64,000 nt of DNA from Verrucomicrobiia bacterium. Lineage in GTDB: Bacteria > Verrucomicrobiota > Verrucomicrobiia > Limisphaerales > Pedosphaeraceae. Position 1 is the stretch's first letter. Every line of letters begins with the position of its first letter. Location of the stretch: the NCBI GenBank assembly GCA_036268055.1, contig DATAUW010000024.1:62001-126000 (forward strand). Direction: 5' to 3'. The position numbers and the translations under genes were made by a program. The notes beneath the pieces are model-generated. The model saw nothing but the letters and a program-made list of their open reading frames with translations, had not been told where the DNA came from and searched no databases. Shown piece by piece: positions 17,101-31,022 of this stretch.

Positions 17101-17522
17101 CGGTGAGCGCCGGCGCGGCGTGGCAGTTGCAAGGCGATACGGCTTTTGGCGTCAACGGGCTCAAGGGCATTTACACGCGCGCCATCACGAGCACAAATTT
17201 CGCGGTGGTATTCAAGCCGGTGGCCGGCTGGAATTTTCCGATAACCGTTCAAACCAACATTTCGCTCGGGCCGCCGGAGATCATTACCTTGACGGCGAAT
17301 TACACCCTGCTCGCGGTTCTTTCCGCCGACCCGGTGCGCGGCATCGGCATCATCGGAGAACCCGGCACTTCCTTCCGAATCGAATACCGGACAAATCTCA
17401 CGACCGGTCAATGGCTGCCTTTGCAGACCAATCTGCTCAGCGCGGGATTCAATCAGTTGTTCCCCTGGCCTCCGACCAACGGCCCTGCGGCATTTTATCG
17501 CGCCGTTCAACTTTCGCCATAA
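11190..17522 (+). CDS. Giant secreted multidomain protein with trypsin-like protease domain
   Basis: The protein has 2110 residues from a GTG start; an ATG at 11217 also leaves an intact signal peptide, so the start is uncertain. Domains in order: three repeats of about 90 residues with the motif EYF(W/F)D(A/T)DPG (starting near 41, 134, 226); Ig-like (296-375); InlB-type repeat (386-450); a propeller of repeated WxQTYGGS/DGGYLLGG units (458-864); a chitobiase-C-like segment with YTLDGSDPD (880-965); more InlB-type repeats (967-1183); two Ig-like domains (1188-1370); Calx-beta (1380-1490); PEGA-like units (1500-1670). A trypsin-like serine protease follows (1681-1927) with His1726 in LTAAHL, Asp1793 in RELDVAAM and Ser1881 in GASGAP, a complete triad. 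Another PEGA-like unit and a PVC-typical tail ending FYRAVQLSP close it. It is probably a cell-surface or released protease-adhesin, co-transcribed with the two beta-helix genes. Confidence 0.8.
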   Translation: MRNNSHKLKMFGSCLAGLIFFAALVGITLFARADDPQALTAAEYFWDADPGAGNGTPVSIPAGETLITSDIPPLNVDVTHLSAGLHLLGVRVKDATGRWSGVALEPIQVQDANTLIAAVNSLPTADTNKLLASGEYFFDTDPGLGNGTKITIPTGETLITPDIPPLNLNISQLALGLHQAGFRVQDIGGRWSSVTWEPILVEDASALIAGVTNFSTGDTNKFLIAGEYFWDTDPGLGHGTATSVPPDEIWTAGITNPVNALIPVLPGGIHQLGVRTKDTSGNWSAAQWLPMEVLDPPVITNEPASQIVSAGSNFSLTVGAGGAMPFFFQWFQNSNSLAGATNQTLTIAAADFTNAGAYYVAITNIFGVATSLTANVTVTVGSPIATAVLGGGTISASPSLSDYLIGQAVTLTANAGRYYTFVRWSDGNTNVSRNITIGTSNFFTADFTNSEPLETQTFKRWEDDFGGPGFEEVRSQVATSDGGYLLAGTSTSGVSGNKTTAGFGGEDFWIVKIDSHGNKQWEQTYGGSGDEYLNAAIVTADGGYLLGGSTTSDISGDKTTTSYGGGDGWLVKVDSAGNKQWDQTYGGSGVDYFLALHQTPDGGYAVTGASGSAPSGNKTSPNYGGQDAWVLKLDAAGNKQWEQSYGGDQDDYCLQILQTPDGGFLLGAGSRSGADGNKTAPGLGPPGSDAGWIIKIDASGNKQWDKTYGGSGGDDYFSTVRATPEGGYIVSGILNYNSGSYWLLKLDSSGSIQWQKTYHGGAQDLLQSVLPVPDGGYILGGASSSGIAGDKSAPNLGGSDYWFLKVDSLGNKICDTTYGGSSDDYAITMTVDGQQNVLLSGWSLSGVSGNKTTVNFGDHDMWAVAVSVRTAPVGTPVVLVNGLYDPSNNFSLAATNTIQVTLQSTYPNGFIFYTLDGSDPDFTANPYTVGEPFLVTNSLLVRAIAYNDDGSLFQEADPVAIQVVPVYNLTNTTPGGGSVAFDPPGGIYLSNAAVTATATASNGWTFLRWQGASSSTANPVTVTMNSSTNLMAVFGTTISPTPPSGGSIALAPAQGPYPYGSTVRLIAIPASGKAFSRWFSFTGPSNNPLDFLVISNTPVVNALFGNLAANNFTLTTLLNGSGTVTKNPFAESYLNNSVVQLTAVPDSGNTFTGWSGDAGGAQNPLSVTMNSTKVITATFAANATLSGQPPIVAITNLAPEFIFTAPTNILINATASDANLNGYITQVAFFAGTNALGVASNAPYSFVWTNAPVGTNILTCVAADNFGLVATSAPVTVTVQTALPQIGLISPNNGDSFITPANILIHALASDADNSIARVELYNGSTLLGSITNPPYQLTWSNVPIGAYTLTARAIDSFGPIVTSAPVSFSVIAPPSTNPAVFQFSAANYSVNESNASVTLTVLNTGNFGGLINYLTHDVSAHGGSGFSGDYTTVQGSLTFSNNQSSANIVVPILDNFLTRADIQFQVQLLFPSQGSSLGSPSTATVTIHENDTGGASNSLLSIAFPSAQPPTGSALQVTLLPPEAGGQWRFAWDVGWRNSGDTVANLAADNYPIQFRNVSNYLAIPSSVTISVPNNTTARYTNQYYPTIGQPSPSDTGSLTVKISPNAPTGAGWRIFGETAWRAPGSTASNLLVDIYPIEFAPVSGWSKPVSEAIQLVGGQGTSITVNYLLASSPPAGFGGPIAVTSDSLSNSSLYPFQFDGQLQTDVGYGSGAVVRPNIVLTAAHLVFDDQTLAFAKNAWWYFQEEAGAFQPKPIQARGWFMLSGYAAQRTNDLVNGGLSVDQSSPQSRELDVAAMYFLTLAGRAGYGGYLSSDAMPNPYLTSSAAKMVAGYPVDGSEFGQVVQPGLLYVAPPQPSSSTFTPDYQDTYTASWFLDYPGASGAPVYVQFSTPSGPYFYPAGIYLGTLGSGASSVSVVRAIKSDVVNLINLAASEGDAGTNNSGGGVITFVAPGISADNRAFVQVALDPPAAVSAGAAWQLQGDTAFGVNGLKGIYTRAITSTNFAVVFKPVAGWNFPITVQTNISLGPPEIITLTANYTLLAVLSADPVRGIGIIGEPGTSFRIEYRTNLTTGQWLPLQTNLLSAGFNQLFPWPPTNGPAAFYRAVQLSP

Positions 17523-17674: not shown

Positions 17675-17749
<75 letters not shown>

Positions 17750-18035: not shown

Positions 18036-19958
18036 ATGAAGACGCAACGCATATTTTTTGCCGGAATTTCTCCTCTCATTGCCAGCGGTCTGCTTACTCT
18101 CGCGCTGCCGGCTTTGAGTGTTTTCGGCGCGGGCCCGCTCGATGACATGGTGAGTCGTGAACAAGCCAAGTTTATTCTCGCGGCGGCCAAGGCCGACAAA
18201 TCTGCCACGACGATGGTCGGTGGCAAACCGGTCAACGCAGACGCGGAACACGCCCGTTTGTTTGTGGAGAGCAAATATCCTTCTGCCGCCACCTGCCGCA
18301 CCTGTCATCCCAATCATTATCGCGAATGGTCGGTTTCCGCTCATGCCTACGCGCAGTTAAGCCCGGTCTTCAACACTTTTGAAGCCGCCGTCACGAAATT
18401 AACCCAGGGATCGAACGGTGATTTTTGTATTCGCTGCCACACTCAAGTCGGGATGAATCTCGGGGAATCCACCTTCATGAGTAATATGGATCGCTGCCCG
18501 ACCTCTCGTGAAGGCATCACTTGTATCGTCTGCCATCGCCTGCGCAATGACTACGGCAAAATCAGCGGGCGTTTCGCGCTCGTTAAGGGTGACATCCTGA
18601 CTCCGGTGTACGGGCCGACCGGCGATGCGGAACTCAAGCGCGTTCTCTCCCAGCCCGACGTTTATCGCGTCGTCACCAATGAAGTTCCTGGCCGAAAGAT
18701 TCATACGGATGTAGTCAAGTTTCCCGCGCTCCGCACTTCCGGTTTCTGCGGCACCTGCCACGACGTGACCTTGCTGAATGGTTTCCGCCTCGAAGAAGCT
18801 TTTAGTAATTTCAAGAATTCTCCCGCCGCCCATCGTGGTGAAAATTGCCAGGATTGCCACATGGGCCTCATTCCGGGTAAAAAATCAGGCTACGCCGAAG
18901 AACCGGCGGCCATTGTCGGAGGCGTGCCGACGAAACCGCGCCGCCGCACGAATCACATGTTTGCCGGCCCGGATTATTCCATTATTAATCGTGGTTTTTT
19001 CCCGCACAATGACAAGGCGGCGGCTCTCGCCACGATTCGCGAATGGCTGACCTTCAATGACAAAGCCGGCTGGGGAACCGACAAGTTCGAAAATAGTGTG
19101 CCCAAGGATTTCAAATTCCCGACGCGCTGGGCTTCCGTGGACGACCGTTATGACGCGCGCGCCATTCTTAATGATCAATATGCCTTGCTGGCCGAAATCC
19201 AGAAGCAGCGCCTACAGATTTTGCGCCAGGGTTACCAACTGGGGCAGTTTGTGGTTCAGGAAGCCGATTCCAAAGGGCTGAAGTTCAAGATTCAGGTCCA
19301 CAGCGGAACGGATGGCCATAATGTGCCGACTGGTTTCGACGCCGAGCGCGTATCTTATATGCAGGTGTTCGTCACCAACTCCGCCGGCAAGCTGGTCTTC
19401 CAGTCCGGCGACCTCGATCCCAATGGAGACATTCGCGACCGCCACTCCACTTACGTCTCTACCGGCAAGCTTCCACTGGACCCGTATCTGTTCTCGCTGC
19501 AATCGCCGTTCCTGACCAGCAATGTGCGCGGTGGTGATCGCGAACAGGTTTTGCCGATTAATTATTCGGTTGATCCGCTGCCCTTTATTCGGCCCACGAC
19601 CTTTGCGGTGAATTTTACCGGACATCCCGCAGGTGCGCGAGTTCAACGCCGCGGCATGGAAGCATTTGAAAGCCGCTGGCCGGAATACAAGGTCAAGGCT
19701 TCGGAGTTGACCGATCCCGGCCCATATACCGTGCACATTCGCTTGCTGGCGGGCATGGTTCCCATCAATCTGATCAGTGAAATCAAGGTGGCGGGTTTCG
19801 ACTATTTTATGTCGCCCCGCGAAGTTGCCGAAGCCGTGAAGAACGGCCAGTCGCTTTTATACGATAAGGAAATCAAGATCCAACTCGACGGAGCCAAACC
19901 AACCATCAACCTTGCGGACTTGGCCGATGTTTCGGCAAGCACCTATGTTCAGAAGTAA
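18036..19958 (+). CDS. Secreted pentaheme c-type cytochrome
   Basis: The 640-residue protein has a Sec signal peptide (about 1-32) without a lipobox. Five CxxCH haem-binding motifs are visible: C87-H91 (CRTCH), C131-H135 (CIRCH), C163-H167 (CIVCH), C238-H242 (CGTCH) and C271-H275 (CQDCH). The spacing and the phrase HPNHYREWSVSAHA place it near the cytochrome c554-type multihaem family. The C-terminal half lacks haems and looks like a beta-sandwich (GTDGHNVPTGF near 430), a feature known in related multihaem proteins. It should be periplasmic or at the outer membrane and act as an electron carrier or terminal oxidoreductase; the substrate is unknown. It is the first gene of a seven-gene operon, and its last 14 bases overlap the beta-barrel gene, which suggests the two products work together. 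Confidence 0.88.
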   Translation: MKTQRIFFAGISPLIASGLLTLALPALSVFGAGPLDDMVSREQAKFILAAAKADKSATTMVGGKPVNADAEHARLFVESKYPSAATCRTCHPNHYREWSVSAHAYAQLSPVFNTFEAAVTKLTQGSNGDFCIRCHTQVGMNLGESTFMSNMDRCPTSREGITCIVCHRLRNDYGKISGRFALVKGDILTPVYGPTGDAELKRVLSQPDVYRVVTNEVPGRKIHTDVVKFPALRTSGFCGTCHDVTLLNGFRLEEAFSNFKNSPAAHRGENCQDCHMGLIPGKKSGYAEEPAAIVGGVPTKPRRRTNHMFAGPDYSIINRGFFPHNDKAAALATIREWLTFNDKAGWGTDKFENSVPKDFKFPTRWASVDDRYDARAILNDQYALLAEIQKQRLQILRQGYQLGQFVVQEADSKGLKFKIQVHSGTDGHNVPTGFDAERVSYMQVFVTNSAGKLVFQSGDLDPNGDIRDRHSTYVSTGKLPLDPYLFSLQSPFLTSNVRGGDREQVLPINYSVDPLPFIRPTTFAVNFTGHPAGARVQRRGMEAFESRWPEYKVKASELTDPGPYTVHIRLLAGMVPINLISEIKVAGFDYFMSPREVAEAVKNGQSLLYDKEIKIQLDGAKPTINLADLADVSASTYVQK

Positions 19959-21471
19959 ACTGACTCCCGTTCGTTCCCTAAACCAAAATATTGGCATCGC
20001 ATGTTCGCTGGTCCTGGCAGCTTCAGGATCGGCTCGTGCGGATGGGACTAACACCGACACTAACACGAACACCAACACTGCCCCGGCAGCGTCCGCCAAA
20101 GCCACTGCGTCCGCCGCTCAGGATAGTGCCCGGTTTTCGGATCAACCGGCACCGCTGGATCTCGCCACTTTTCCAGAGCGGCCAGCGCCCATCATTGAGC
20201 TAGGTGATAAATTTTTGGGCAACGGAAACCTTCAAAAAGGCATCACTCTGCCGACCGGCGAAGTCATTTCGCCGAGCCTCTGGGTGTTCGGCCAGTTCCG
20301 TACCGCCGTGCAGACTTTCGATACCGGCTCCGGACCGGGAAGCCGCACGACGGAATGGGCCAATCGCCTCGACATTTTTGCCAATCTCCAATTATCAGGG
20401 ACGGAACGTGTCGTCGTCGGCTGGCGTCCGCTGGATCGGTTCAATCCAAATGGTTCCACGGATTATGCCGGTTACCGCATCGAACCCAAGTCGAGCGACG
20501 GTCCTGACAGCTCGTTCAGCGCCACGCCGCGCACCCTGTTTTTTGAGGGTGAATTTGGCGAAATTTTTCCGACGCTCGACCAGCACGACAAGGAAAATTT
20601 TGATTACGGTTTCTCAGTCGGTCGCCAGCCGCTCACGTTGCAGGACGGCATTCTCGCCAACGATAACAGCGTGGATATGGCCACGATCACGCGCAATTCC
20701 ATGTTAATTCCGGGTGGTTCATCGTTGCGTCTTTCGGGCTTGTTTGGCTGGGGACAAATCGAGCGCACGGACTATACCCTCGCCAGCGCGCCAAACGCGC
20801 AGGATCCGGGCGCGCTTTTGTTCGGCCTTGATAGCACGGCGGATTTTCCCATCAGCACGATTGAAAGCGATGTGCTCTTTGAATCCTCAAGCGCTTATGG
20901 GGATGAATTTTTTGCCGGCATCGGGGCACTGCAACGTATTGGCAAACTCAATACCACCTTCCGCGCCAATACTTCCGTGGCTATTGACGCGAGCGGCAAA
21001 AAGGCAACCAGCGGAACGCTATTTACGGCTCACTTGTCCTATACTTTGCCCGAAAACACCGACCTCGTTTATCTCGATACTTACTGGGGCATTGGCCGTT
21101 ATAGTTCGGCAGCGCGCGACCCAAGCGCCGGCGGCCCGCTGGGTTCCATTGGTATTTTGACGGCGTCGGTGGCGCTCGGTCAATATGGCTCGCCGCTCAG
21201 CAATCAAGCCGACCACACTGCGGGCGGAGCAGTCGGTTATCAGATGTTTTTCGGCGAACTGCGCCGCCGCCAGTTGGTCATCGAAGTGGGTGGCCGCGCA
21301 CCGACTCACGGGAGCGATCTCTTCCGCGAAGAATCCGTGGCGGGCATTGGTGTCCGTTTTCAACAGGCGTTTGGCCGCCGGTTTATCGGGATCCTGGATA
21401 CGTTCGGAGGCGTTCGGGATTCCAATGAAGCAGCGGTGGGCGGGCGCGTCGAATTGCTCACAAAATTCTAG
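19945..21471 (+). CDS. Outer-membrane beta-barrel protein of the cytochrome operon
   Basis: The start at 19945 is chosen over an in-frame ATG at 19912 because it gives a signal peptide (MFRSKLTPVRS..ASGSARADG). The protein has 508 residues. After a Thr/Asn- and Ala-rich linker, the rest is amphipathic beta-strand sequence with aromatic girdles (LWVFGQFRTAVQTFD, TERVVVGWRPLDRF, RRRQLVIEVGGR). It ends in a strand terminating with phenylalanine (GGRVELLTKF), the usual C-terminal signal of outer-membrane barrels. It overlaps the pentaheme cytochrome gene and lies 14 bases before the reductase gene. The family is not one I can name. By position it may be the barrel of a porin-cytochrome conduit, or a porin for a substrate of the cytochromes. 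Confidence 0.78.
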   Translation: MFRSKLTPVRSLNQNIGIACSLVLAASGSARADGTNTDTNTNTNTAPAASAKATASAAQDSARFSDQPAPLDLATFPERPAPIIELGDKFLGNGNLQKGITLPTGEVISPSLWVFGQFRTAVQTFDTGSGPGSRTTEWANRLDIFANLQLSGTERVVVGWRPLDRFNPNGSTDYAGYRIEPKSSDGPDSSFSATPRTLFFEGEFGEIFPTLDQHDKENFDYGFSVGRQPLTLQDGILANDNSVDMATITRNSMLIPGGSSLRLSGLFGWGQIERTDYTLASAPNAQDPGALLFGLDSTADFPISTIESDVLFESSSAYGDEFFAGIGALQRIGKLNTTFRANTSVAIDASGKKATSGTLFTAHLSYTLPENTDLVYLDTYWGIGRYSSAARDPSAGGPLGSIGILTASVALGQYGSPLSNQADHTAGGAVGYQMFFGELRRRQLVIEVGGRAPTHGSDLFREESVAGIGVRFQQAFGRRFIGILDTFGGVRDSNEAAVGGRVELLTKF

Positions 21472-21485
21472 GTCTTCTTCGTTAC

Positions 21486-22748
21486 ATGGATCCTGCCAAA
21501 ATACTTGCCGTCGGTGGTGCGATTTTATTCGTCATCGTCCTCCTGAACCTGTTGGTTCTTTTTTACTCCAACGTGCGGCGGACGGCGGCCATCCGCGTGC
21601 AGCGCCGGTTGGATGGGGAATTATTTTCCTGCCGGCTCAACCTGGCGCGGCTGCAATTAAAGCGGCAGGAAAGCGCCGGATCATGGAACGGCACGCGAAA
21701 ATTCCAGATTGATAAAATCGTCAGCGAATGCGCGGACGTCTCTTCATTCTATCTCGTGCCCCATGATAAAAAAGCGCTGCCGCCGTTTCATCCCGGCCAA
21801 TTCCTCACTTTTGAACTCGATGTCCCCGGCCAGCGCAACCGCGTCATTCGTTGCTACTCCCTTTCCGATCGTCCGCGCCCTGATTATTATCGTGTGACCA
21901 TCAAGCGCGTGCCCGCGCCGCCGGATAATCCCAAGGGAAAACCCGGCCTCGTCTCCAGCCATTTTCATACCGCACTCAAAGCCGGGGACATCGTTGATTG
22001 CAAGGCGCCAAGCGGCGGATTCTTTCTCGATACCAGCCGCCTGACGCCGGTGGTGCTGCTCGCTGGCGGCGTGGGCATCACGCCGATGGTCAGCATGGCG
22101 AACGAAATCATCGAACTCACGCCGCAGCGGGAGACGTGGTTTTTCCTCGGCGTCCGCAATTCCCAGGACCATATCATGAAGGATTACCTGGACGTGCTGG
22201 CGCGCTCCAACAGCAACATCAAATTGCACGTCTGCTATTCGCGCCCACTCAAGACCGATGTCAAAGACCGGGATTACCAGCATGAAGGGCGCTTGAATTT
22301 TGAACTGCTCAAGAAGGAATTGCCCTCGAACAATTTTGATTTCTTCATGTGCGGTCCGGGGGAGATGATGAGTGATTTGCATACCGCCCTGCTCGAATGG
22401 AACGTGCCGGACGAGAGCATTCATTTTGAGGCCTTCGGCCCCGCGAGCGTGAAGCGCACCGCGCCGCCCACCGCCGAGCAGCCTGCTGGCCCGCAAACCA
22501 AGGTATCTTTCTCCCGCTCGAACCGGGAAGTGGCGTGGACCGGCCAATCAGCTTCACTGCTCGATTTGGCCTTGGCAGAAGAAGTGCCGATTGGGTATGG
22601 TTGCCGCGCAGGGAATTGCGGCAGTTGCAAGACCGCGATCAAATCCGGCAAAGTGAAGTATCTCAAACGCGCAGGTTGCGAAGTCGAGGCGGGAAGCTGC
22701 CTCACCTGCATTGCGGTGCCGGATGGAGATTTGACTTTGGACGCGTGA
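21486..22748 (+). CDS. Membrane-anchored FAD/NAD(P)H/2Fe-2S oxidoreductase
   Basis: The 420-residue protein has an N-terminal transmembrane helix (about 7-28), then a ferredoxin-reductase module with the flavin motif RCYSLSD, an NAD(P)-binding region with GGVGITPM and MCGPGEMM, and a C-terminal plant-type [2Fe-2S] domain. Its ligands are C373, C378 and C381 (CRAGNCGSC), with a fourth at about C408 in SCLTC. This domain order matches phthalate-dioxygenase-reductase- and Hcr-like enzymes; NqrF has the same parts but with the 2Fe-2S domain first. It should take hydride from NAD(P)H in the cytoplasm and pass single electrons to a membrane partner, here plausibly the cytochrome b-like protein or the multihaem proteins of the same operon. 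Spacing to the neighbours is 14 and 53 bases. Confidence 0.88.
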   Translation: MDPAKILAVGGAILFVIVLLNLLVLFYSNVRRTAAIRVQRRLDGELFSCRLNLARLQLKRQESAGSWNGTRKFQIDKIVSECADVSSFYLVPHDKKALPPFHPGQFLTFELDVPGQRNRVIRCYSLSDRPRPDYYRVTIKRVPAPPDNPKGKPGLVSSHFHTALKAGDIVDCKAPSGGFFLDTSRLTPVVLLAGGVGITPMVSMANEIIELTPQRETWFFLGVRNSQDHIMKDYLDVLARSNSNIKLHVCYSRPLKTDVKDRDYQHEGRLNFELLKKELPSNNFDFFMCGPGEMMSDLHTALLEWNVPDESIHFEAFGPASVKRTAPPTAEQPAGPQTKVSFSRSNREVAWTGQSASLLDLALAEEVPIGYGCRAGNCGSCKTAIKSGKVKYLKRAGCEVEAGSCLTCIAVPDGDLTLDA

Positions 22749-22801
22749 CGGCACGCAAGCTCATGGCAGTAATTGAACGCTGAAATTACGGAACAACAAT
22801 T

Positions 22802-23788
22802 ATGCAAAAACTTGCCTTCTCGATCAAATTAATGGCGCCGCTGCTCGCCCTCGGCCTGCTCCAAAATATTCATGCCGCCGAAGATATTTACCACACCGAC
22901 CCCGCGAAGGTGATGGGCCCGGAGGCCTGCAATGAATGTCACGCGCCCGAAGTCGAGGCCTGGAAACTCACGCATCATTTCGATACTTTCAATTCCATGC
23001 ATCGCCGTCCCGAAGCGCGGGACATCTCCAGCAAGATGGGCATCCGCCGTATCAAGGAAGAGAGCCTTTGCCTCAAGTGCCATTACACGGAAAAGAACGA
23101 TGACGACGGCAAAGCGCAGGTGATCTCCGGCATTTCCTGTGAGTCCTGCCACAGCGCGGCCAAGGATTGGATCAAGGTTCACAGCGCCAAAGATGACCCT
23201 GACCGTCTCGCGAAAGCCGAAAAACTCGGGATGCTTCGCCCAAATAATTATTATCGCGTCGCGGCAAATTGTTTTGGTTGCCATACCGTTCCCGAGGAAA
23301 AACTCGTGAACGTCGGAGGTCATAAAGCGGGCAGTGATTTCGAATTGGTTTCGTGGCTTTCCGGTGAAGTGCGCCACAACCTCCAAAAATCCGCGGGCAA
23401 GGTAAACGAGGAAATCCCTGCTGAACGCCGCCGCATGCTCTACGTCGTTGGTCGCGCCTTGGACTTGGAATACAGCTTGCGCGGTCTCGCGAAAGCCACG
23501 GAAGACGGTGATTACTCGAAGGGGATGATCGCCCGCGCCACCGCCGCCAAGGCCAGCCTTGACGAAATTGCCAAGGCCACCGGCGCAGCGGAAGTGACAA
23601 AGATCAGTGCGGCTGTCAGTGCCGGTGATTTAAAAATTAATAATGCCGACGCTCTGAATAAGGCCGCCGACGCCATCAGCGAAATCAGCAGCGGCTTCGC
23701 CAAAAGCCAGGACGGCACCAAGCTTGCCAGTGTTGATCCTCTTATTCCCGGTCCTGACAAATACAAGGGAACGCCCTATAAACCTTGA
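22802..23788 (+). CDS. Periplasmic tetraheme c-type cytochrome
   Basis: The 328-residue protein has a Sec signal peptide (about 1-26, LLQNIHAAED). Four CxxCH motifs are present: C43-H47 (CNECH), C90-H94 (CLKCH), C113-H117 (CESCH) and C157-H161 (CFGCH). The pattern GPEACNECHAPEVEAWKLTHH is typical of cytochrome c554-type proteins. The C-terminal 120 residues are Ala/Lys-rich and helical without haems (about 210-315), perhaps a docking segment. It would serve as a soluble electron shuttle between the inner-membrane and outer-membrane partners in this operon. A 144-base gap to the next gene could hold an internal promoter. Confidence 0.9.
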   Translation: MQKLAFSIKLMAPLLALGLLQNIHAAEDIYHTDPAKVMGPEACNECHAPEVEAWKLTHHFDTFNSMHRRPEARDISSKMGIRRIKEESLCLKCHYTEKNDDDGKAQVISGISCESCHSAAKDWIKVHSAKDDPDRLAKAEKLGMLRPNNYYRVAANCFGCHTVPEEKLVNVGGHKAGSDFELVSWLSGEVRHNLQKSAGKVNEEIPAERRRMLYVVGRALDLEYSLRGLAKATEDGDYSKGMIARATAAKASLDEIAKATGAAEVTKISAAVSAGDLKINNADALNKAADAISEISSGFAKSQDGTKLASVDPLIPGPDKYKGTPYKP

Positions 23789-23932
23789 TTGATTTTCAGG
23801 GCGTTCGCGGGAACAAAATATCAAACCCAAAATGCCGATCGCGCGGTTTGCGCTGGGCCGGTGTGTGGAAAAGCTGTTACCTTTTTTGGCGGAGTCTTGA
23901 AACTTTAAAAACGCACTCAAATATTTTTTGCG

Positions 23933-25675
23933 ATGCCTGAAGAAGCACAAAGCATAAAGCGGCCGCAACGCTGGGACGTTCCTTTCTGGAACGAATCCGC
24001 GGAATTTGAGATCGCGCCCATGACCGAGGAAGAAGTGGATCGTCTTCTGCAAATTCCACTGTTTCGCCAGATGGATCCCACGCGTTTTCCAAAAAACACT
24101 TCCTTGCGCGATATTCTCCTGAACGACGGCCGCGTCCGCAAATTTCGCAAAGGCGACATCATCGTGCGGCAGGGCGATTACGGAAATTCCGCTTTCATCG
24201 TCCTTTCCGGCACCGCGCGGGTGGTGCTGGATAAACTCAGTGACCGCGTCACCGGACGCCAGGAACCGGTGCGCAAAAGCGCCTTTAGCGCGTTCGCCCA
24301 ATGGTGGCAAAATCCCAAACTGCCGGAAGTGCGCCACCTCGGCGTAAAGAGTCCCGAACGCGAAGCCGGACATACCGACATCATTGCCCGCACGGACCCG
24401 GCGGTGTTCGTGCAGGACATGAACGTCATCATCAAGGACAAGCGCACGGTGGATTTGCCCGCCGGCGAATTGTTCGGTGAAATCGCCGCGCTGAGCCGCA
24501 CCGCACGCACGACCACGGTCATCGCGGGGGCGGAATCCGAGATGCTCGAGATCCGCTGGCAGGGTTTGCGCGAGATCCGCCTGCACGCGCCCGAGTTCAA
24601 AGACTATGTGGACCGCCTCTACCGCGACCACAGCCTCAAGAATCATTTGCGCGAGACGCCGATGTTCAGCCATCTCAACGATGAAACGCTCGCGCGCGTC
24701 GCCGCTGTCACGGAATTTCTTACGTTTGGAAAATTCGAGTGGTATGCCACCTTCACCAAGATTCGCGAAACCACCGCCCCGGATCGCATCCAGAAAGAAC
24801 CGGTCGTTGCGCAGGAAGGCCATTATCCGAACGGGGTGTATTTGATCCGCAGCGGCTTCGCGCGGCTAAGCGAAACTTTCAACAACGGCGAGCGCACTGT
24901 CAGTTATCTCGGTCGCGGACAGATTTTCGGTTTCGAGGAAGTGGCCTTGAACTGGATGAAAAAAAGCGACTTGCCGTTTCAGCGCACCTTGCGGGCGGTC
25001 GGTTACGTGGACGTGCTGTTTGTCCCCACGCCCGTCATTGAGCAGCACGTTCTTCCGGGCATGCCGGAATCGGAACTGCCGAAACCGCAGCCGGTCTCGA
25101 TTGACAAGCGCAGTCAACGCCGCAGCCATGATAAAATTCCGCCGGAGATGATGGAATTCATCGTCGAACGGCGCTTCATCAATGGAACCGCGACGATGAT
25201 CATTGACATGGATCGTTGCACGCGTTGTGACGATTGCGTCCGTGCCTGCGCCGCCACGCACAACAATAATCCACGCTTTCTCCGGCACGGGCCGATCGAA
25301 GACCATTTCATGATCGCCAATGCGTGTATGCATTGCCAGGACCCGGTGTGCATGATCGGTTGCCCGACGGGCGCCATCCACCGTGATTCCACCCATGGCC
25401 GCGTGGTGATCAATGACCTTACGTGTATCGGTTGCGCCACCTGTGCGAACAGTTGCCCGTATGACAATATTCAAATGGTCACGGCGCGCAGCACGGATGG
25501 CCGGCCTTATTACGATCAGGCGACCAATCAGCCGATTCAAAAAGCCGCGAAGTGCGATTTGTGTTCCACGCAAATTACCGGACCGGCTTGCGCGAATGCC
25601 TGCCCGCACGATGCCCTCGTGCGAATGGACATGCGCAACGTGGATAAACTCGCCGACTGGCTGAAACAACGATGA
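23933..25675 (+). CDS. Cyclic-nucleotide-binding / four-cluster ferredoxin fusion
   Basis: The 580-residue cytoplasmic protein has no signal. Residues about 40-215 form a cNMP-binding domain: RKGDIIVRQGDYGNSAF, then a phosphate-binding cassette FGEIAALSRTARTTTV at 181-196. A long insert (about 101-165) splits the domain. A second cNMP-like domain lies at about 242-370 (QEGHYPNGVYLI) with a degenerate cassette (FGFEE). Residues 424-565 are a DmsB/NrfC-type ferredoxin with four cysteine sets: C429/432/435/439, C465/468/473/477, C498/501/504/508 and C541/544/553/557, enough for four [4Fe-4S] clusters. No helix-turn-helix is seen, so it is not a CRP regulator. It probably carries electrons to the membrane partner encoded next, which it overlaps by four bases (ATGA), and may be gated by a cyclic nucleotide. 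Confidence 0.88.
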   Translation: MPEEAQSIKRPQRWDVPFWNESAEFEIAPMTEEEVDRLLQIPLFRQMDPTRFPKNTSLRDILLNDGRVRKFRKGDIIVRQGDYGNSAFIVLSGTARVVLDKLSDRVTGRQEPVRKSAFSAFAQWWQNPKLPEVRHLGVKSPEREAGHTDIIARTDPAVFVQDMNVIIKDKRTVDLPAGELFGEIAALSRTARTTTVIAGAESEMLEIRWQGLREIRLHAPEFKDYVDRLYRDHSLKNHLRETPMFSHLNDETLARVAAVTEFLTFGKFEWYATFTKIRETTAPDRIQKEPVVAQEGHYPNGVYLIRSGFARLSETFNNGERTVSYLGRGQIFGFEEVALNWMKKSDLPFQRTLRAVGYVDVLFVPTPVIEQHVLPGMPESELPKPQPVSIDKRSQRRSHDKIPPEMMEFIVERRFINGTATMIIDMDRCTRCDDCVRACAATHNNNPRFLRHGPIEDHFMIANACMHCQDPVCMIGCPTGAIHRDSTHGRVVINDLTCIGCATCANSCPYDNIQMVTARSTDGRPYYDQATNQPIQKAAKCDLCSTQITGPACANACPHDALVRMDMRNVDKLADWLKQR

Positions 25676-26481
25676 CGCTCACTTCCCGCCGGCATTTTGC
25701 CTGGGTGTTGTTTGCCATCGCCGCAATCGTGGCGTGGGTGGTGGACTATGCCCTGCGCATCGAGTTGCGCCGCGCGGAAATCGTGACGGGGTTGACCTTG
25801 TTTATCGTCGTCGTCTTCCTGACACTTTTCAACGCGCGCAAAAAACTGCCATTCCTTCCCTTATTGCGCGCCTCGACCTGGATGCAGATCCACATTTACG
25901 TCGGCTTGCTTAGTTGCGTTTTGTTCGGCTTGCATACCGGCTGGCGCGTGCCGACTGGGACTTTTGAAACCACCCTGGCAATTTTATTTTATCTCGTTGC
26001 CATCAGCGGCATCGTCGGGCTGGGCATCTCTCGCTGGCTTCCGGCGCGCCTCACTGTCTATGGCGAAAACGTGATCTTCGAGCGCATTCCCGCGTTGCGC
26101 GCGACGTTGCGGCGAGAAGTGGAAGAGATGGTTCTAGAATCGGTCGGCAAGGCGCAATCCTCGGCCATCGCCGATTTTTACGATTTGCGTTTGCGCAACT
26201 TTTTTCAAGGAACCCGTTACATGTGGTATCACGTGATCGGCTATCGCCAGCCGCTGCTCGATTTGCTTTCGGAAGTCCGCGGGCTCGAACGCTATCTTAA
26301 TGCTGAAGAACAAGCCATCCTCGCGCAAATCGTCGAGCGCATTCACGCCCGGGACGATCTGGATTTTCAAAAGGCCCGCCAGGGTGTGTTGAAAGGCTGG
26401 CTGTTCATCCACATTCCTTTGACCTATTCCATGCTCATCGCCGCGATGGTTCACGGCGTTCTCGCGTGGAGGCTCTCATGA
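25672..26481 (+). CDS. Di-haem cytochrome b-like inner-membrane protein
   Basis: The 269-residue protein has about five transmembrane helices (near 10-28, 37-53, 72-90, 99-120, 243-265) and a polar stretch at about 125-238. Two helices carry histidine pairs spaced HX13H: H74/H88 and H247/H261. That geometry is the known bis-histidine pattern for two stacked b haems in transmembrane cytochromes such as ferric reductases. It starts inside the stop of the ferredoxin fusion gene and ends 10 bases before the decaheme gene. The inferred role is to move electrons from the cytoplasmic Fe-S partner across the inner membrane to the decaheme cytochrome. The exact family is not identified. Confidence 0.8.
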   Translation: MTLTSRRHFAWVLFAIAAIVAWVVDYALRIELRRAEIVTGLTLFIVVVFLTLFNARKKLPFLPLLRASTWMQIHIYVGLLSCVLFGLHTGWRVPTGTFETTLAILFYLVAISGIVGLGISRWLPARLTVYGENVIFERIPALRATLRREVEEMVLESVGKAQSSAIADFYDLRLRNFFQGTRYMWYHVIGYRQPLLDLLSEVRGLERYLNAEEQAILAQIVERIHARDDLDFQKARQGVLKGWLFIHIPLTYSMLIAAMVHGVLAWRLS

Positions 26482-26491
26482 TTTCCCGATA

Positions 26492-28618
26492 ATGCGCCGC
26501 CTCCAGGAATTTGGCTTCGACAAAAGCCCTTACGAACGGCCCAATCAAAAATGGGTCTGTGGCCGCGCGCGCGATGGCCAATGCTGCCTTGCCGGCCCGG
26601 ACGAAAAGGGCAACTGTATGGCGAGCGCCGAGTGCCGCCCCTTGCGCAAAGGCGATCGCTGGCAATGCGCGCGTCCCGCGTTTCTCGGCGGCCCCTGTGC
26701 CGAAGGACCTTCGCCCACCGGCCAATGCTGCCGGGTCATCCCCAAGTGCAGCCCGGTTCGCAGCGTGCGTTCCTGGCGCAGCCTGACCGTCATGCTCGTG
26801 GCGGGCGTTACGCTGGCTGCGCTTTTTATCCTGCTCGGCTTGAAAGACGGCAATCGCGCGTTCTCGCCGGGCCAGCTTAGTTTTTCCCATCGCTCTGCTG
26901 GCGAAAATTGCAATGAATGTCACGACGGTCTGGAGCCGCGTCCCGCGCGCTGGCTCGTGAAAACTCCCGACTCACACTCCGCGCACGCCGGCAGCCAGCT
27001 TTGCCTAAACTGCCACAACGTCGGCGATTCGCCGCTGCAACCGCACGCGCTCGCCGCTGCCGACTTGCATGCGCTGACCGAAGCCGCGCAGAAAAAAAAT
27101 AATGCCCACAGCCGTCCGGCTGGCCTGATGCTCGCTTCATTTATCCCGAGCATCGGCCACTCGCAAACCGAAGGCATTGCTTGTGCGACTTGCCACAAGG
27201 AACATCGCGGCGAGGAGGCCGACCTGAAAAAAATCTCCAATCAGCAGTGCCAGAGCTGCCACGCCACCCAGTTCGCCAGTTTTGCCGAGGGGCATCCACA
27301 GTTCACCAGTTATCCTTTTGAACGGCGTACCCGGATTATTTTTGATCATCAATCTCATCTGCGTGAGCACTTCAGCGATCCCACGGTCGCGAAGTTCGCG
27401 CCCAATTCCTGCCTCGATTGTCATTTGACCGATTTGCGCGGCGGTACGATGCTCGTGAAATCGTACGATGTCATTTGCGCTTCCTGCCACGATGACCAGA
27501 TCAAAGCCAAGTCGGCGGCGAAAACCGGCATCCCCTTTATCGGAATTCCTCGCATGGATGACCAAACATTGAAGGGAACTAACTCGATTGGCCAGTGGCC
27601 GGAAGACGCCGACCAGCCGCTGACTCCTTTTCTGCGTTTGATTCTTTCGGGTGATCCGACGGTGCGTGCAGCTCTTCAAAAATTGCAGGGCGTGGATCTT
27701 TCGAGTCTCCCGAAAAAAGATCCCGATAAAGTAAAAGCCGCGCAAACGCTGGCGTGGGGAATCAAGTCCTTGATCTTTGATCTGAACTCGCACGGCCAGG
27801 AAGAACTCCTGAAACGAATTACCGCCAGTGCCGGACGGCCGCTATCGAATTTCGAAAAAGAAGGCGTGGTCGCATTCTTCAATGCCGAGGCTTTTCGCAA
27901 TACTTTTCAGGGCGCATTTCCCAAGCTGCAAAAAGAAGTCATTGACTATCGCAAATCCGGAGTTGCTCCCGCGACTGAACTGGTTCCTTCGCCTGATCTG
28001 CCGCCGCCCGGCCCTGTCAAAAATGTGCCGCCGGACGAATGGGTGGACAACGGCGGCTGGTATAGTCCCGACGGCTCGTTTACGCTTTATTATCATCCCC
28101 GCGGCCATCGCGACCGTTTCCTCAGTTCATGGATGGATCTGACGGTTGATCCTGCCTCCACCGCCGACCCCGCGGTTTCACAAGCCTTGTTCAAGCAACT
28201 CACCGCGCCGTCTGCGGTGGGGATGTGCGCCAAGTGCCACAGCGTGGATGACTCGCCGGTCAAGCAAATGAATTGGAACTCCTCGCGCCCCGATCCGCTC
28301 GAACATAAATTTAATCACTTCTCCCATTCCACGCATTTGAGCCTGATGGATGCGCGCGGATGTTTTACCTGCCATTCCATGACCGATATGGCCGGCAAAA
28401 AAGAAACTTATGCTTCCGCATTTGAACCGGGTCAGCGCGATCCGGCCATCTTCCACAGCAATTTCCGCACGATAGACAAGAACGCCTGCGCCACCTGCCA
28501 CCGTCCCAATCTGGTCCGCCAGGATTGTTTACTTTGCCACAACTATCACATCGGCCATTTTAAGCCCGTCGTTCCCCATGCCAATATTGTCGCCACCGCG
28601 ATATCGGCGGGTCATTAA
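26492..28618 (+). CDS. Inner-membrane decaheme cytochrome with cysteine-rich N-terminal head
   Basis: The 708-residue protein starts with about 90 residues holding ten cysteines (C23, C31, C32, C42, C48, C59, C69, C79, C80, C86) in what look like two degenerate repeats around GQCC. One transmembrane helix follows (about 98-117), so the head should be cytoplasmic. The periplasmic part has ten CxxCH motifs: C140, C171, C231, C253, C307, C329, C579, C624, C666 and C679 (first cysteine of each). The haems cluster in two groups of six and four, separated by a haem-free stretch of about 245 residues. The first group resembles cytochrome c3/NapC-type multihaem domains. The head may bind a metal or Fe-S cluster, but that is inference. 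It is the last gene of the operon and ends four bases from a convergent response regulator gene. Confidence 0.87.
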   Translation: MRRLQEFGFDKSPYERPNQKWVCGRARDGQCCLAGPDEKGNCMASAECRPLRKGDRWQCARPAFLGGPCAEGPSPTGQCCRVIPKCSPVRSVRSWRSLTVMLVAGVTLAALFILLGLKDGNRAFSPGQLSFSHRSAGENCNECHDGLEPRPARWLVKTPDSHSAHAGSQLCLNCHNVGDSPLQPHALAAADLHALTEAAQKKNNAHSRPAGLMLASFIPSIGHSQTEGIACATCHKEHRGEEADLKKISNQQCQSCHATQFASFAEGHPQFTSYPFERRTRIIFDHQSHLREHFSDPTVAKFAPNSCLDCHLTDLRGGTMLVKSYDVICASCHDDQIKAKSAAKTGIPFIGIPRMDDQTLKGTNSIGQWPEDADQPLTPFLRLILSGDPTVRAALQKLQGVDLSSLPKKDPDKVKAAQTLAWGIKSLIFDLNSHGQEELLKRITASAGRPLSNFEKEGVVAFFNAEAFRNTFQGAFPKLQKEVIDYRKSGVAPATELVPSPDLPPPGPVKNVPPDEWVDNGGWYSPDGSFTLYYHPRGHRDRFLSSWMDLTVDPASTADPAVSQALFKQLTAPSAVGMCAKCHSVDDSPVKQMNWNSSRPDPLEHKFNHFSHSTHLSLMDARGCFTCHSMTDMAGKKETYASAFEPGQRDPAIFHSNFRTIDKNACATCHRPNLVRQDCLLCHNYHIGHFKPVVPHANIVATAISAGH

Positions 28619-28622
28619 AAAT

Positions 28623-29264
28623 TTACTCCGCCGTCTTCGCTTCCGACCGCAATTTTCCCACTGCTTCCAACCGGTTTCGCACGTGCATTTTTTGGCAGAT
28701 GCTTTTTACATGGCTGCGCACGGTTTCAAAACCGATGTTCAACTGTTCCGCGATCTCTTTATAGAGATAGCCCAGCGCCAGCAGATTCAACACTTCGCGC
28801 TCCCGCAAAGTCAGGTTCTCAGTCTCGGTCGGTGAAGGCCCCAACGCATGAAAATGTTCCACCACTTTGTTCGCCACATGGCTCGACATCGGCGCTCCGC
28901 CTTTATAGACATCGCGAATCGCTGCCAACAATTCCGCCGGCGGACTCGACTTGATCAGATAACCGTTCGCGCCCGCCTTCAGCGCGGCAAAAATCCGTTT
29001 GCTGTCTTCATAGACCGTCACCATCACAATGTGCGTGGAGTGATCGTGCTTGCGAATCTCGGTTAAACATTCGATGCCCGACATTCCCGGCAGCTTGATG
29101 TCCATCAACACCACGTCCGGCTTGGCCACGAGAATTTGTGGCAAAGCTTCTTCTGCCGACGAATAAGCGCCGAGGCACTTGATATCCGCCGCCGTTCCCA
29201 AAATTTTCGTGAATTGCTTTCGCAATCCAGAATCGTCTTCCACCACCACTACGGATTTTTTCAT
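28623..29264 (-). CDS. NarL/LuxR-family response regulator
   Basis: The 213-residue protein has a receiver domain (about 1-120) with acidic pocket E9/D10/D11, phosphoacceptor Asp55 in DVVLMDIKLPG, and the conserved Lys of the YLIKSS segment. The C-terminal LuxR-type helix-turn-helix (about 143-205) shows LTLREREVLNLLALGYLYKEIAEQL in separated conserved blocks. The start codon lies 27 bases after the stop of the sensor kinase gene, so the two form a classical pair. Its targets are unknown. The divergent PEP-CTERM/LamG promoter and the convergent redox operon are both candidates from position. Confidence 0.93.
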   Translation of the reverse strand: MKKSVVVVEDDSGLRKQFTKILGTAADIKCLGAYSSAEEALPQILVAKPDVVLMDIKLPGMSGIECLTEIRKHDHSTHIVMVTVYEDSKRIFAALKAGANGYLIKSSPPAELLAAIRDVYKGGAPMSSHVANKVVEHFHALGPSPTETENLTLREREVLNLLALGYLYKEIAEQLNIGFETVRSHVKSICQKMHVRNRLEAVGKLRSEAKTAE

Positions 29265-29291
29265 AATGAGCCTTTCTGTGGCGGTGATTTC

Positions 29292-31022
29292 TCAAACGCC
29301 TTTTGAACCGTCTTGCGAACCATTCGGTCCCGATTTCCCGTCACCCGATCCAATCACCAACTTAAAATGAATCGTCGTCCCCTGCCCCGGCGAACTTTCA
29401 ATCGCGCAATTTCCACCCAGGCCTTCCAATCGCCGCTTCATATTTTTCAATCCGTGTCCGGCCGGCACGCCGGCCTGATCGAATCCGCATCCGTCGTCCT
29501 GAATGGACACATCGAATAATTTATCCGCGAAAGTGATACGCGCTGTCACGAGTGTGGCGCGCGCATGCTTGATGATATTATGTACCGCCTCGCGCGCTGC
29601 CATGCTGAAGTTATGCCGGATGCGGCTCGACACATTGATCTCCAGCGGCAATGGCGAGACATGGATGCGGCAGCGCAACTGCGCCTGCGTGCACATTTCG
29701 TTGATGGTTTGCCGCAGGTAATCTCCCATCGCATTAACATTGTCATTCTCCGGGTCCACCGCCCATACCGTTTCATAAAGCGCCGAGACCAAATCCCGCG
29801 ACACTAAATAAATCTGGTCAAACTCCGCGCGCGCCTTCTCCGACAAGGTTGTGTCCTTCTGCGCCATGCCGCTCATCATCGAGATCTGCGTTACCCGTGC
29901 GCCCAAATCGTCGTGGATGTCGCGCGCGATTCGCATGCGCTCCTCTTCGAGCGCGCGCTGTTGCTCCAGCAAAAACATCGCCCGCTGCATTCGCCGCGAA
30001 GTGTAGTATCGCACGCTCAGCGCCACGACCACGACCACCATCATTGCCATCGCTCCCCAGAACCACGGCGATTCCCAAAATGGCCGCGGCACCCGCACTG
30101 CCAATTCCGTCTTGCGTCCGGTTGGCTTCCCGAGAATCGTCACCTCCTCAACTTGAAAAACAAATTTCCCCGCTGGTAATGTTGGATAAACCGACGAATG
30201 GTCCCGGCTCTCGCCGATGGAATACATTTCGTTCCATTCCATCACCATATTATCATTGGGCATCACCCGCGGCGCGCTTTCCTTTGCGTTATGCCATTCG
30301 GCATGGCCGAATGGATCTTCGTCAATGATCGCCATCGCTTTGGTTTTCGGCGCGCTGCCGATCTCGACCACCTTCGCCATGCTCGGCCGCGTGCCGTCCG
30401 TCAGCCACGCATTGGTGGCCTGATTTATTCCTTCTTCATCCGCGTCCTCATCGAATGGCGAACGCAACAAAATCTTGGGCTTGCCGGAAGAAATTTTGGA
30501 AACGACCAAATGATCAATCACGTAAATCCCCAGCGTCGAAGGCGGCCCGGCTGAAGTGAACACCACTTGAAAATTTGAAGCGCCCGCCGGCACAGTCAAC
30601 GTCTCGCGCCGATGCGTTAGCGGCGAGCTTTCCAAACCTCCATTCCAGCCGGCGCTTTCTCCTCGCACTTTAAATTGCATTTGCTCCACCAGGTCACCCG
30701 CATCGTTACAAAATCGTACCGTGGCGAACATGTAACCACCGCCCATCTGCCAAGTGGAATCATAACCCGCCAATTTATAATTCAACCGCAGCCGCGGATC
30801 ATTCGTGCCGGAAGCCAGCCCAAAACGAAATTGAATTGCCAGCGGCGACGCGCCCAGGTTGATGCTGCTTCCCCGCTGCCATTGCAGGGATTTTCCATTG
30901 ACCTCAACTCCGTTGACCTCCACCGGATTTATCTCTTGCGCGAAGCCGCAGGTTACGCCCGCCAGCCACGCTCCCCAAAGCACGAGGATAATCGAAAGTC
31001 GAATCGTTATCCGGTGTTTCAT
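29292..31022 (-). CDS. NarL-type sensor histidine kinase with periplasmic beta-sandwich
   Basis: The 576-residue protein has a signal/first helix at the N-terminus (about 8-28), a periplasmic region of about 290 residues with beta-sandwich character, a second transmembrane helix (about 322-343), a short coiled coil, a HisKA_3 dimerisation domain with the phosphoacceptor His370 in ARDIHDDLG, and a HATPase_c domain with AREAVHNIIKHA (N box), DDGCGF and GHGLKNM. The periplasmic end PRPFWESPWFWG is typical of Y_Y_Y-bearing sensors in Bacteroidota and Verrucomicrobiota that respond to glycans, although no propeller precedes it here. It is followed at once by its response regulator and preceded by a GH35 gene, 94 bases away, which supports a sugar-sensing role. 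Confidence 0.9.
   Translation of the reverse strand: MKHRITIRLSIILVLWGAWLAGVTCGFAQEINPVEVNGVEVNGKSLQWQRGSSINLGASPLAIQFRFGLASGTNDPRLRLNYKLAGYDSTWQMGGGYMFATVRFCNDAGDLVEQMQFKVRGESAGWNGGLESSPLTHRRETLTVPAGASNFQVVFTSAGPPSTLGIYVIDHLVVSKISSGKPKILLRSPFDEDADEEGINQATNAWLTDGTRPSMAKVVEIGSAPKTKAMAIIDEDPFGHAEWHNAKESAPRVMPNDNMVMEWNEMYSIGESRDHSSVYPTLPAGKFVFQVEEVTILGKPTGRKTELAVRVPRPFWESPWFWGAMAMMVVVVVALSVRYYTSRRMQRAMFLLEQQRALEEERMRIARDIHDDLGARVTQISMMSGMAQKDTTLSEKARAEFDQIYLVSRDLVSALYETVWAVDPENDNVNAMGDYLRQTINEMCTQAQLRCRIHVSPLPLEINVSSRIRHNFSMAAREAVHNIIKHARATLVTARITFADKLFDVSIQDDGCGFDQAGVPAGHGLKNMKRRLEGLGGNCAIESSPGQGTTIHFKLVIGSGDGKSGPNGSQDGSKGV

Follow-up and report, generated by a model that had tools for sequence, protein, structure and literature searches.

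A PCC4-type gene cluster in a Verrucomicrobiia genome with a putative cNMP-binding iron-sulphur protein and a predicted inner-membrane-anchored decahaem cytochrome

The PCC4 gene clusters, proposed from genomes by He, Barco, Emerson & Roden in 2017 (PMC5566968), combine a porin with cytochromes of 4, 5 and 10 haems and were first found in the genomes of iron oxidisers and in water-filter bacteria. Their inner-membrane protein is described in the accessible text of that paper as having five transmembrane (TM) helices, with the motif WX3HX13H on TM3 and TM5 and SGXXG on TM4. In subgroup II an iron-sulphur (Fe-S) gene of family PF13247 lies upstream of the inner-membrane gene and further redox genes lie upstream of the tetrahaem gene; subgroup I is said to lack the Fe-S gene. 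The hosts given for subgroup II are Zeta-, Gamma- and other Alphaproteobacteria and Planctomycetes, and extracellular electron transfer is offered as a proposal, not as a demonstration (PMC5566968). Within the literature searched PCC4 was otherwise met only in the accessible part of a 2026 karst metagenome study, as one citation, and no functional test of it was found. Here we describe a seven-gene redox cluster at 18036-28618 on the + strand of a 64,000-nucleotide stretch (the window) of contig DATAUW010000024.1 from a Verrucomicrobiia bacterium. Judged by gene set, haem counts and motifs against the published description, this locus is a PCC4 subgroup II cluster. An earlier note on the same DNA, which rightly recognised the seven genes as a cluster, had known of no conduit with such a set of parts; PCC4, with its porin, its 4-, 5- and 10-haem cytochromes and its PF13247 gene, is one (PMC5566968).

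The correspondence with the published description extends to several features. A porin gene, identified from a barrel model and its fold matches, adjoins a multihaem cytochrome gene, and three cytochromes carry 4, 5 and 10 haem motifs. The inner-membrane protein shows five hydrophobic peaks, two WX3HX13H motifs and an SGXXG motif, and the gene upstream of it matches PF13247 (E 1.6e-11). Further redox genes precede the tetrahaem gene here too. All seven open reading frames run in the same direction and are as tightly spaced as had been claimed, with gaps of 14, 53, 144 and 10 bases and two overlaps. The pentahaem and barrel genes overlap by about 14 bases if the barrel starts at ATG 19945, the most likely start on a reading of the bases (alternatives TTG 19912 and ATG 19927), and the end of the Fe-S gene overlaps the start of the inner-membrane gene by 4 bases. 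The 19 c haems counted in the earlier note are also there, as 5, 4 and 10 CXXCH motifs in the pentahaem, tetrahaem and decahaem proteins. NCBIfam gave no above-cutoff assignment for any of the seven proteins among the best 25 rows per protein.

Some points differ from the description of 2017. All three PCC4 cytochromes are described as periplasmic, whereas for the present decahaem protein we predict an anchor in the inner membrane and two four-cysteine (4-Cys) units on the cytoplasmic side; we treat this mismatch as a point of description rather than of definition. Verrucomicrobiota, the phylum of the present host, is not named among the carriers in the accessible text of PMC5566968, and the word 'cyclic' is absent from its main text, whereas the Fe-S protein here contains domains predicted to bind cyclic nucleotide monophosphates (cNMP). 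The reading that we prefer, at a probability of about 0.5, is that the cluster encodes a regulated route across the cell envelope along which electrons would travel outwards. Gene content and its conservation, the haem and Fe-S motifs and the conserved cNMP cassette are shown below, whereas topology and haem ligands are predictions, and the direction, the sequence of carriers, the gating, the passage of the outer membrane and the acceptor are inferred.

The pentahaem cytochrome (18036..19958, +; PF13435/PF22113) has a signal-like N-terminus and its haem motifs lie within residues 87-275. The tetrahaem cytochrome (22802..23788, +), predicted to be periplasmic, contains a cytochrome c554 family domain (PF13435, E 2.7e-16), and the decahaem cytochrome is encoded at 26492..28618 (+). 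Pfam assigns haem domains of the cytochrome c554/MtrC type. In alignments of 53 decahaem, 30 pentahaem and 43 tetrahaem sequences every haem-motif His (ten, five and four, respectively) is conserved throughout, and the other His conserved at a cut of 0.89 number exactly ten, five and four. These are His 133, 185, 238, 268, 286, 289, 539, 612, 615 and 686 of the decahaem protein (His 539 at 0.89, the rest at 0.98 or above), His 72, 103, 223, 307 and 428 of the pentahaem protein (all at least 0.97) and His 59, 127, 174 and 192 of the tetrahaem protein (1.0, 1.0, 1.0 and 0.98). Below these come pentahaem His 470, 94 and 324, at 0.70-0.73, and decahaem His 293, at 0.68. A minimum of 8, 5 and 4 haem motifs was required of sequences in the decahaem, pentahaem and tetrahaem alignments, a choice that favours conservation of the motif His but not of the other His, and that excludes cut-off sequences and relatives with three motifs. 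Although a conserved His is no proof of ligation, the pattern predicts that each of the 19 haems has two His ligands, like the haems of electron-transfer cytochromes. In multihaem enzymes that act as catalysts, one haem or more is open. Since the other conserved His amount to ten, five and four for 19 haems, no haem looks open for catalysis, and the system is probably wire-like rather than enzyme-like.

On the cytoplasmic side, the membrane-anchored reductase (21486..22748, +) has the FAD, NAD(P)H and 2Fe-2S domains attributed to it earlier (FAD_binding_6, PF00970; NAD_binding_1, PF00175; Fer2, PF00111), preceded by a hydrophobic segment at residues 6-24, and Cys373, Cys378, Cys381, Cys405 and Cys408 are invariant in 17 rows. 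The cNMP/Fe-S protein (23933..25675, +; PF00027 and Fer4 families including PF13247) has no hydrophobic segment and is predicted to be cytoplasmic. Its cNMP region matches PKG/PKA regulatory domains of the PDB in profile searches. In the first cNMP-binding domain (approximately 24080..24562) Glu183 is kept in 56 of 59 rows and Arg192 in 58 of 59; we take these to be the residues of the PKA/PKG phosphate-binding cassette. The cassette of the second domain (24788..25042, the best PF00027 stretch, residues 286-370) is altered, with Gly333, Glu336 and Arg354 kept in 58, 56 and 53 of the 59 rows. A ferredoxin region of HydN/HycB3-like type follows (25193..25627; PDB 7qv7, E 2.7e-25; NCBIfam HydN 63.9 bits, below the cutoff of 260). 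The 16 cluster-type Cys of the protein, kept in 58-59 of 59 rows, agree with the four 4Fe-4S clusters claimed earlier. Six matches to Guanylate_cyc (PF00211) over the cut-off are found in the same genome.

The inner-membrane protein (25672..26481, +) has two predicted b haems. WX3HX13H occurs at residues 70-88 and 243-261 and SGIVG at 112, with the five hydrophobic peaks (Kyte-Doolittle) in register with the motifs, and two or more copies of WX3HX13H are present in 59 of 60 rows of this di-haem protein. Its only Pfam match is DUF4405, at 24.8 bits against a cutoff of 26.7; the ferric-reductase transmembrane domain PF01794 was not matched in Pfam.

A closer look at the N-terminus of the decahaem protein revealed a domain that had been missed in the earlier note. 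About 95 residues precede a single TM helix (hydrophobic segment 98-116) and contain eight Cys but no CXXCH, an arrangement from which the protein is predicted to reside in the inner membrane. The Cys form two 4-Cys units (26558..26749), Cys23, Cys32, Cys42 and Cys48, and Cys59, Cys69, Cys79 and Cys86, each of the pattern C-x(5-9)-C-x2-GP-x(2-4)-G-x-C-...-C-x-P. All eight are invariant in 20 of 20 rows and conserved at 0.89-1.0 in 53 rows, single-unit forms included. A single unit was matched in six Planctomycetota loci (L096-L100 and L102), which suggests one four-Cys site per unit; four of the single-unit Planctomycetota loci, L098, L099, L100 and L102, form a branch of their own in the tree. 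The pattern also found one unit in L016, L028, L070, L071 and L101, of which L016 and L028 have both units in the alignment, and none in L074. There the N-terminal domain is broken by a frame shift (L074:9903-10283), so that this locus is no evidence on the units; four in-frame TGA codons in this Pseudomonadota genome were considered as selenocysteine and rejected, the codons being in the wrong frame. Mean net charge is +4.1 before the TM helix and -0.3 after it, and higher before than after in 55 of 58 sequences, by which rule the domain is predicted to face the cytoplasm. It had no match in Pfam, among PDB sequences or among PDB folds (best fold E 5.4), and no fold conclusion is drawn from its model (pLDDT 80.6, pTM 0.50).

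The barrel (19945..21471, +) has no Pfam match, and 55 columns are invariant when 13 of its sequences are aligned. The AlphaFold2 model, built from 13 sequences, has a pLDDT of 67.1, below 50 for residues 1-103, and 18-19 main strands as counted by eye. Its fold matches the MOMP and OccK/OprD porins (5ldv: Z 28.8, root-mean-square deviation 4.1, 344 aligned residues; VIA-align). Barrels of the MOMP/OccK type pass small solutes. MtrB is not among the fold matches listed, which excludes nothing. In a conduit reading the weakest link would be the placement of the pentahaem protein inside the barrel.

Other systems resemble parts of the set. In NOX, ferric reductases and MsrPQ-Fre, electrons pass from NAD(P)H to FAD and then, over a pair of b haems within the membrane, to its outer side; here such parts belong to separate proteins, and Fe-S clusters and c haems are added. 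The haem part of the pentahaem protein matches multihaem cytochrome c552 (PDB 5ze8, E 3.1e-14 in a profile search), presumably of Thermochromatium tepidum, which has 435 residues against 640; the C-terminal part gives a weak match with a negative score, so that a relation there is possible only. We know of no barrel partner of this c552. The cytochromes are not of the MtrAB/DmsE type, as the pentahaem protein scores 27.6 bits and the tetrahaem protein 23.5 with TIGR03508, whose cutoff is 192.2, and the decahaem has no match to it at E 0.01. PCC3 has an inner-membrane protein with the same five TM helices, WX3HX13H and SGXXG motifs, but its cytochromes carry far more haems (PMC5566968). The porin-multihaem cytochrome clusters of freshwater Verrucomicrobia, likewise proposed for extracellular electron transfer, are described in the accessible text as having eight-haem periplasmic cytochromes and porins with at least 20 TM motifs, in contrast to the 5, 4 and 10 haems found here (PMC5615132). 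The Irc cluster of Sideroxydans was considered as a relative and rejected, since its accessible description gives mono- and di-haem cytochromes and other genes.

Conservation of the gene set was examined in related genomes. Scanning GTDB genomes with the cNMP protein yielded 25 loci, of which three (L027, L029 and L030) are related only weakly and in part; the hosts include Verrucomicrobia, Planctomycetes, Nitrospinae, Nitrospirales, Halobacteriovoraceae and Hyphomicrobiales. The relatives overall belong to Verrucomicrobiota, Planctomycetota, Pseudomonadota, Nitrospinota and Nitrospirota, with one Halobacteriovoraceae contig. A profile of the decahaem N-terminus (A1; threshold E 0.001, counts including the centre genomes and partial matches to E 7e-4) was run against the phyla of five carriers and matched 14 of 387 genomes for the window, 3 of 18 for the Nitrospinae locus, 31 of 343 for Lacipirellula, 13 of 398 for the Hyphomicrobiales locus and 3 of 198 for the Nitrospirales locus. 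It also matched all 14 genomes picked as carriers from the cNMP-protein scan. The inner-membrane module is widespread but present in a minority of genomes.

Gene neighbourhoods were compared in 64 loci (L006-L028, L031 and L063-L102, the last being 40 stretches chosen from the match lists, not all matches). As the loci were found through the cNMP protein or the decahaem domain, the counts of these two are favoured by selection. The decahaem gene is present in 59 loci; L010, L014, L018 and L020 are contig ends near the Fe-S or di-haem gene, and in L027 no family was above threshold. Alongside the 59 decahaem genes stand the di-haem protein in 58 loci, the cNMP protein in 55, the tetrahaem type in 52 (at a threshold of 40 bits, which counts relatives with three motifs), the reductase in 49, the barrel in 29 and the pentahaem protein in 28. 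This conservation argues against a chance assembly. The order cNMP-ferredoxin, cytochrome b, decahaem, for which the earlier note had suggested a search in other genomes, is contiguous in 53 of 55 loci. Barrel and cytochromes, whose separation would have spoken against the note, are likewise conserved together, with the pentahaem/barrel pair in 28 loci and the barrel alone in one, at a contig edge. The genes form two recurrent blocks, pentahaem-barrel-reductase and tetrahaem-cNMP-di-haem-decahaem, which in some loci point in opposite directions.

A plasmid collection held no full-length relative of the cNMP protein (0 of 525 matching records with 80% cover). The same search led to a variant on a Sphingobium plasmid (L032), which has a cNMP-Fe-S protein, a di-haem-type membrane protein and a 10-CXXCH cytochrome in the order seen here. 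Its Fe-S protein is fused to a pyridine-nucleotide oxidoreductase, and its decahaem (L032:10081-11892) has, in place of the 4-Cys units, an FHA-like domain before the TM helix (PF16697 at 27.6 and FHA at 17.6 bits, neither reaching its cutoff). The accessible part of PMC10734462 lists a 10-haem 'Forkhead-associated protein' in 27 Gallionellaceae genomes and does not discuss it.

In the outward route that we prefer, NAD(P)H electrons would leave through the membrane-anchored FAD/2Fe-2S reductase, and ferredoxin electrons would perhaps enter through the 4x[4Fe-4S] protein. They would cross the inner membrane via the two predicted b haems to the decahaem anchored beside them and pass from there to the tetrahaem and on to the pentahaem protein. 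The electrons would be handed over at the outer membrane beside the barrel, and their acceptor would be external or large, for example Fe(III), Mn(IV) or humic quinones. Electron entry would be switched by the cNMP-binding domains of the Fe-S protein according to the level of cyclic nucleotide. We infer that the outward direction is favoured, because transfer from NAD(P)H to periplasmic cytochromes would be downhill and the membrane potential would aid transfer from the inner to the outer face; the NAD(P)H reductase in the operon also counts for outward flow. In favour of the route as a whole stand the PCC4 gene-level features, the conserved candidate His for all 19 haems, the spread across phyla, the contiguity of the genes, the cNMP cassette residues and the six Guanylate_cyc matches. 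No RuBisCO large chain was found in this 96% complete genome, which argues against lithoautotrophy of the Calvin-Benson-Bassham type. A full path from NAD(P)H or ferredoxin to the cell exterior had been suggested in the earlier note: parts for the cytoplasm, the inner membrane, the periplasm and the outer membrane stand, whereas the passage to the exterior is weakened by the porin-like character of the barrel and by modules that occur without the pentahaem protein.

These and other observations weigh against the outward trans-envelope route. The barrel model resembles 18-strand solute porins, which are not shown to hold a cytochrome. Among loci L063-L102, 26 have no pentahaem gene nearby, and 21 of those genomes were searched whole, with G000, G1039 and G415 as positive controls. 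The gene lay elsewhere in four (G615, G488, G524 and G569, 684-892 bits), and in 17 of the 21, all with the inner-membrane module, it was not found (nothing above 44 bits); seven of the 17 are Verrucomicrobiota genomes of 97-100% completeness. The basic job of the module thus need not involve the outer membrane. In two Nitrospirota genomes (G1329 and G1343) the pentahaem, barrel, tetrahaem, di-haem and decahaem genes are all present, but no cNMP protein was found anywhere (best 36 bits over 51 positions), and a protein of 155-159 residues replaces the reductase. In L075 (L075:12312-12779) this short protein has a TM segment and a Fer2 domain but no FAD/NAD domain, and its counterpart lies at L076:10046; G394, the third genome of the group, has a full cNMP protein. 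The core can thus do without NAD(P)H and without cNMP, and both links look like add-ons to a core that retains a membrane-anchored 2Fe-2S protein. The window's genome also encodes haem-copper oxidases (3 matches over the cut-off), so external respiration is not obligatory.

Modules without the pentahaem protein vary in their surroundings. Five Verrucomicrobiota loci (L082, L083 and L085-L087) have a 10-haem protein of about 1300 residues nearby, and all of these except L086 also have a protein of about 800 residues near the module. In L085 the larger protein contains LVIVD repeats and the smaller, which has no Pfam match, was read by eye as a barrel and is possibly a different outer-membrane part. 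A cytochrome near the Sphingobium module (L032:13839-17143) is similar by eye to the L085 type. Four Pseudomonadota loci (L065, L067, L069 and L074) carry a short 5-haem cytochrome close to the module, with no match to the barrel family in stretches of 18-20 kb. The genome of the window itself holds a second module copy (G000:C16:212836-219699, or L031:5837-12700) made up of reductase, cNMP protein, di-haem protein and a 573-residue decahaem, with a 3-haem cytochrome on the other strand and no pentahaem or barrel match nearby; in the tree it falls into a branch of seven Verrucomicrobiota rows, all without a pentahaem gene nearby (100% SH-aLRT). The tree, of the cNMP and di-haem proteins, excluded 7 loci without one of the two, and ten short or cut loci were listed as uncounted where pentahaem or barrel was unseen. 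A count of eight changes of pentahaem/barrel state on it was not used, because it was coded from flanks of about 10 kb and four Planctomycetota scored as lacking the pentahaem turned out to carry the gene elsewhere.

Against this background a purely periplasmic redox system is the least improbable of the alternatives, at roughly half the weight given to the preferred route. The porin would admit a soluble substrate and the cytochromes would feed or drain a periplasmic enzyme, with no electron crossing of the outer membrane. The likeness of the barrel to substrate-selective OccK/OprD/MOMP porins, the relation of the pentahaem protein to cytochrome c552, the 17 genomes without a pentahaem protein and the four Pseudomonadota loci with a short 5-haem cytochrome all fit such a system. 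It is countered by the candidate distal His, which suffice for every haem, by the lack of any further catalytic domain among the seven genes in Pfam, and by the pairing of pentahaem and barrel in 28 loci. Still less probable is that the proteins serve as a redox sensor, in which the cNMP and 4-Cys domains would read the periplasmic redox state and signal to the cytoplasm, electron flux being secondary; we consider this very unlikely. A NarL-type regulator and a histidine kinase are encoded next to the operon, and the Sphingobium decahaem has its FHA-like domain; on the other side, no output domain (kinase, cyclase or DNA-binding) was found in the seven proteins with Pfam, and a full NAD(P)H reductase with 19 haems would be costly for sensing.

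The same parts could also run inwards, as proposed for PCC4 itself, with an external donor feeding the quinone pool (PMC5566968): Fe(II) or Mn(II) would be oxidised at the outer membrane and the electrons would pass through the di-haem b protein. We regard this as unlikely, somewhat more so than the periplasmic system. The published model and the iron-oxidiser and water-filter genomes in which PCC4 was first seen speak for it, as do the Nitrospinota and Nitrospirota among the relatives and the oxidases of the genome, which could take the electrons. Expression of the sister type PCC3 points both ways. In Sideroxydans CL21 the expression of both PCC3 copies lies above the mean, and copy 2 shows a significant rise of its inner-membrane gene in iron-oxidising cells (PMC12442390), a further point against an outward route, whereas in Sideroxydans ES-1 both clusters are down-regulated on Fe(II) (PMC8788666; both papers as far as accessible); these data concern PCC3, not PCC4. 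Inward flow would require uphill reduction of the NAD(P)H reductase and of the 4x[4Fe-4S] protein, or leave both idle, and it also tells against this reading that no RuBisCO large chain, the one CO2-fixation marker searched for, was found.

The operon is flanked downstream by the NarL-type response regulator and histidine kinase genes (window 28623-31022, -). Upstream lies a single frame of 2110 residues with repeats (window 11190-17522, +), by eye a very large, probably secreted repeat protein, followed by a tRNA-Met gene (CAT; window 17675-17749). A tRNA-Met gene also stands upstream of the set in a Nitrospirales metagenome-assembled genome (L026:2784-2859), but a tRNA-linked island was rejected, as only L026 of eight related loci scanned had tRNA genes, one of them tRNA-Met.

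Relative to the accessible description of PCC4, the candidate distal His for 19 haems, the predicted anchoring of the decahaem with its 4-Cys units, the putative cNMP-binding residues and the module without a pentahaem protein appear to be new. The cytoplasmic anatomy was not met in the literature searched, nor is the phylum named in the accessible text of PMC5566968; by title or abstract opening, no cNMP domain in such a conduit appeared among the literature matches listed, most subscription papers lying outside the search. We tentatively suggest, as a view that is more doubtful than the outward route itself, that PCC4 and its relatives are signal-gated electron valves. A conserved inner-membrane module would meter the electrons drawn from the cytoplasm, under second-messenger control exerted on the protein itself, and be plugged into varied outer parts. 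The module would comprise the cNMP-sensing 4x[4Fe-4S] protein, the di-haem b protein and the TM-anchored decahaem, whose control domain in the cytoplasm would be a 4-Cys unit in PCC4 and FHA-like in Sphingobium. The outer parts would be pentahaem and porin, a large 10-haem cytochrome beside what may be a large barrel, or a short 5-haem cytochrome that has no porin nearby. The anatomy turns PCC4, named from gene content in 2017, into a testable mechanism with a donor, a gate and an anchored decahaem, and one carrier, Lacipirellula limnantheis I41, is a named strain whose chromosome record is complete and whose locus (L019) holds all seven families, which makes laboratory testing possible. A cNMP domain within an electron carrier would, if functional, amount to direct second-messenger control of an electron route.

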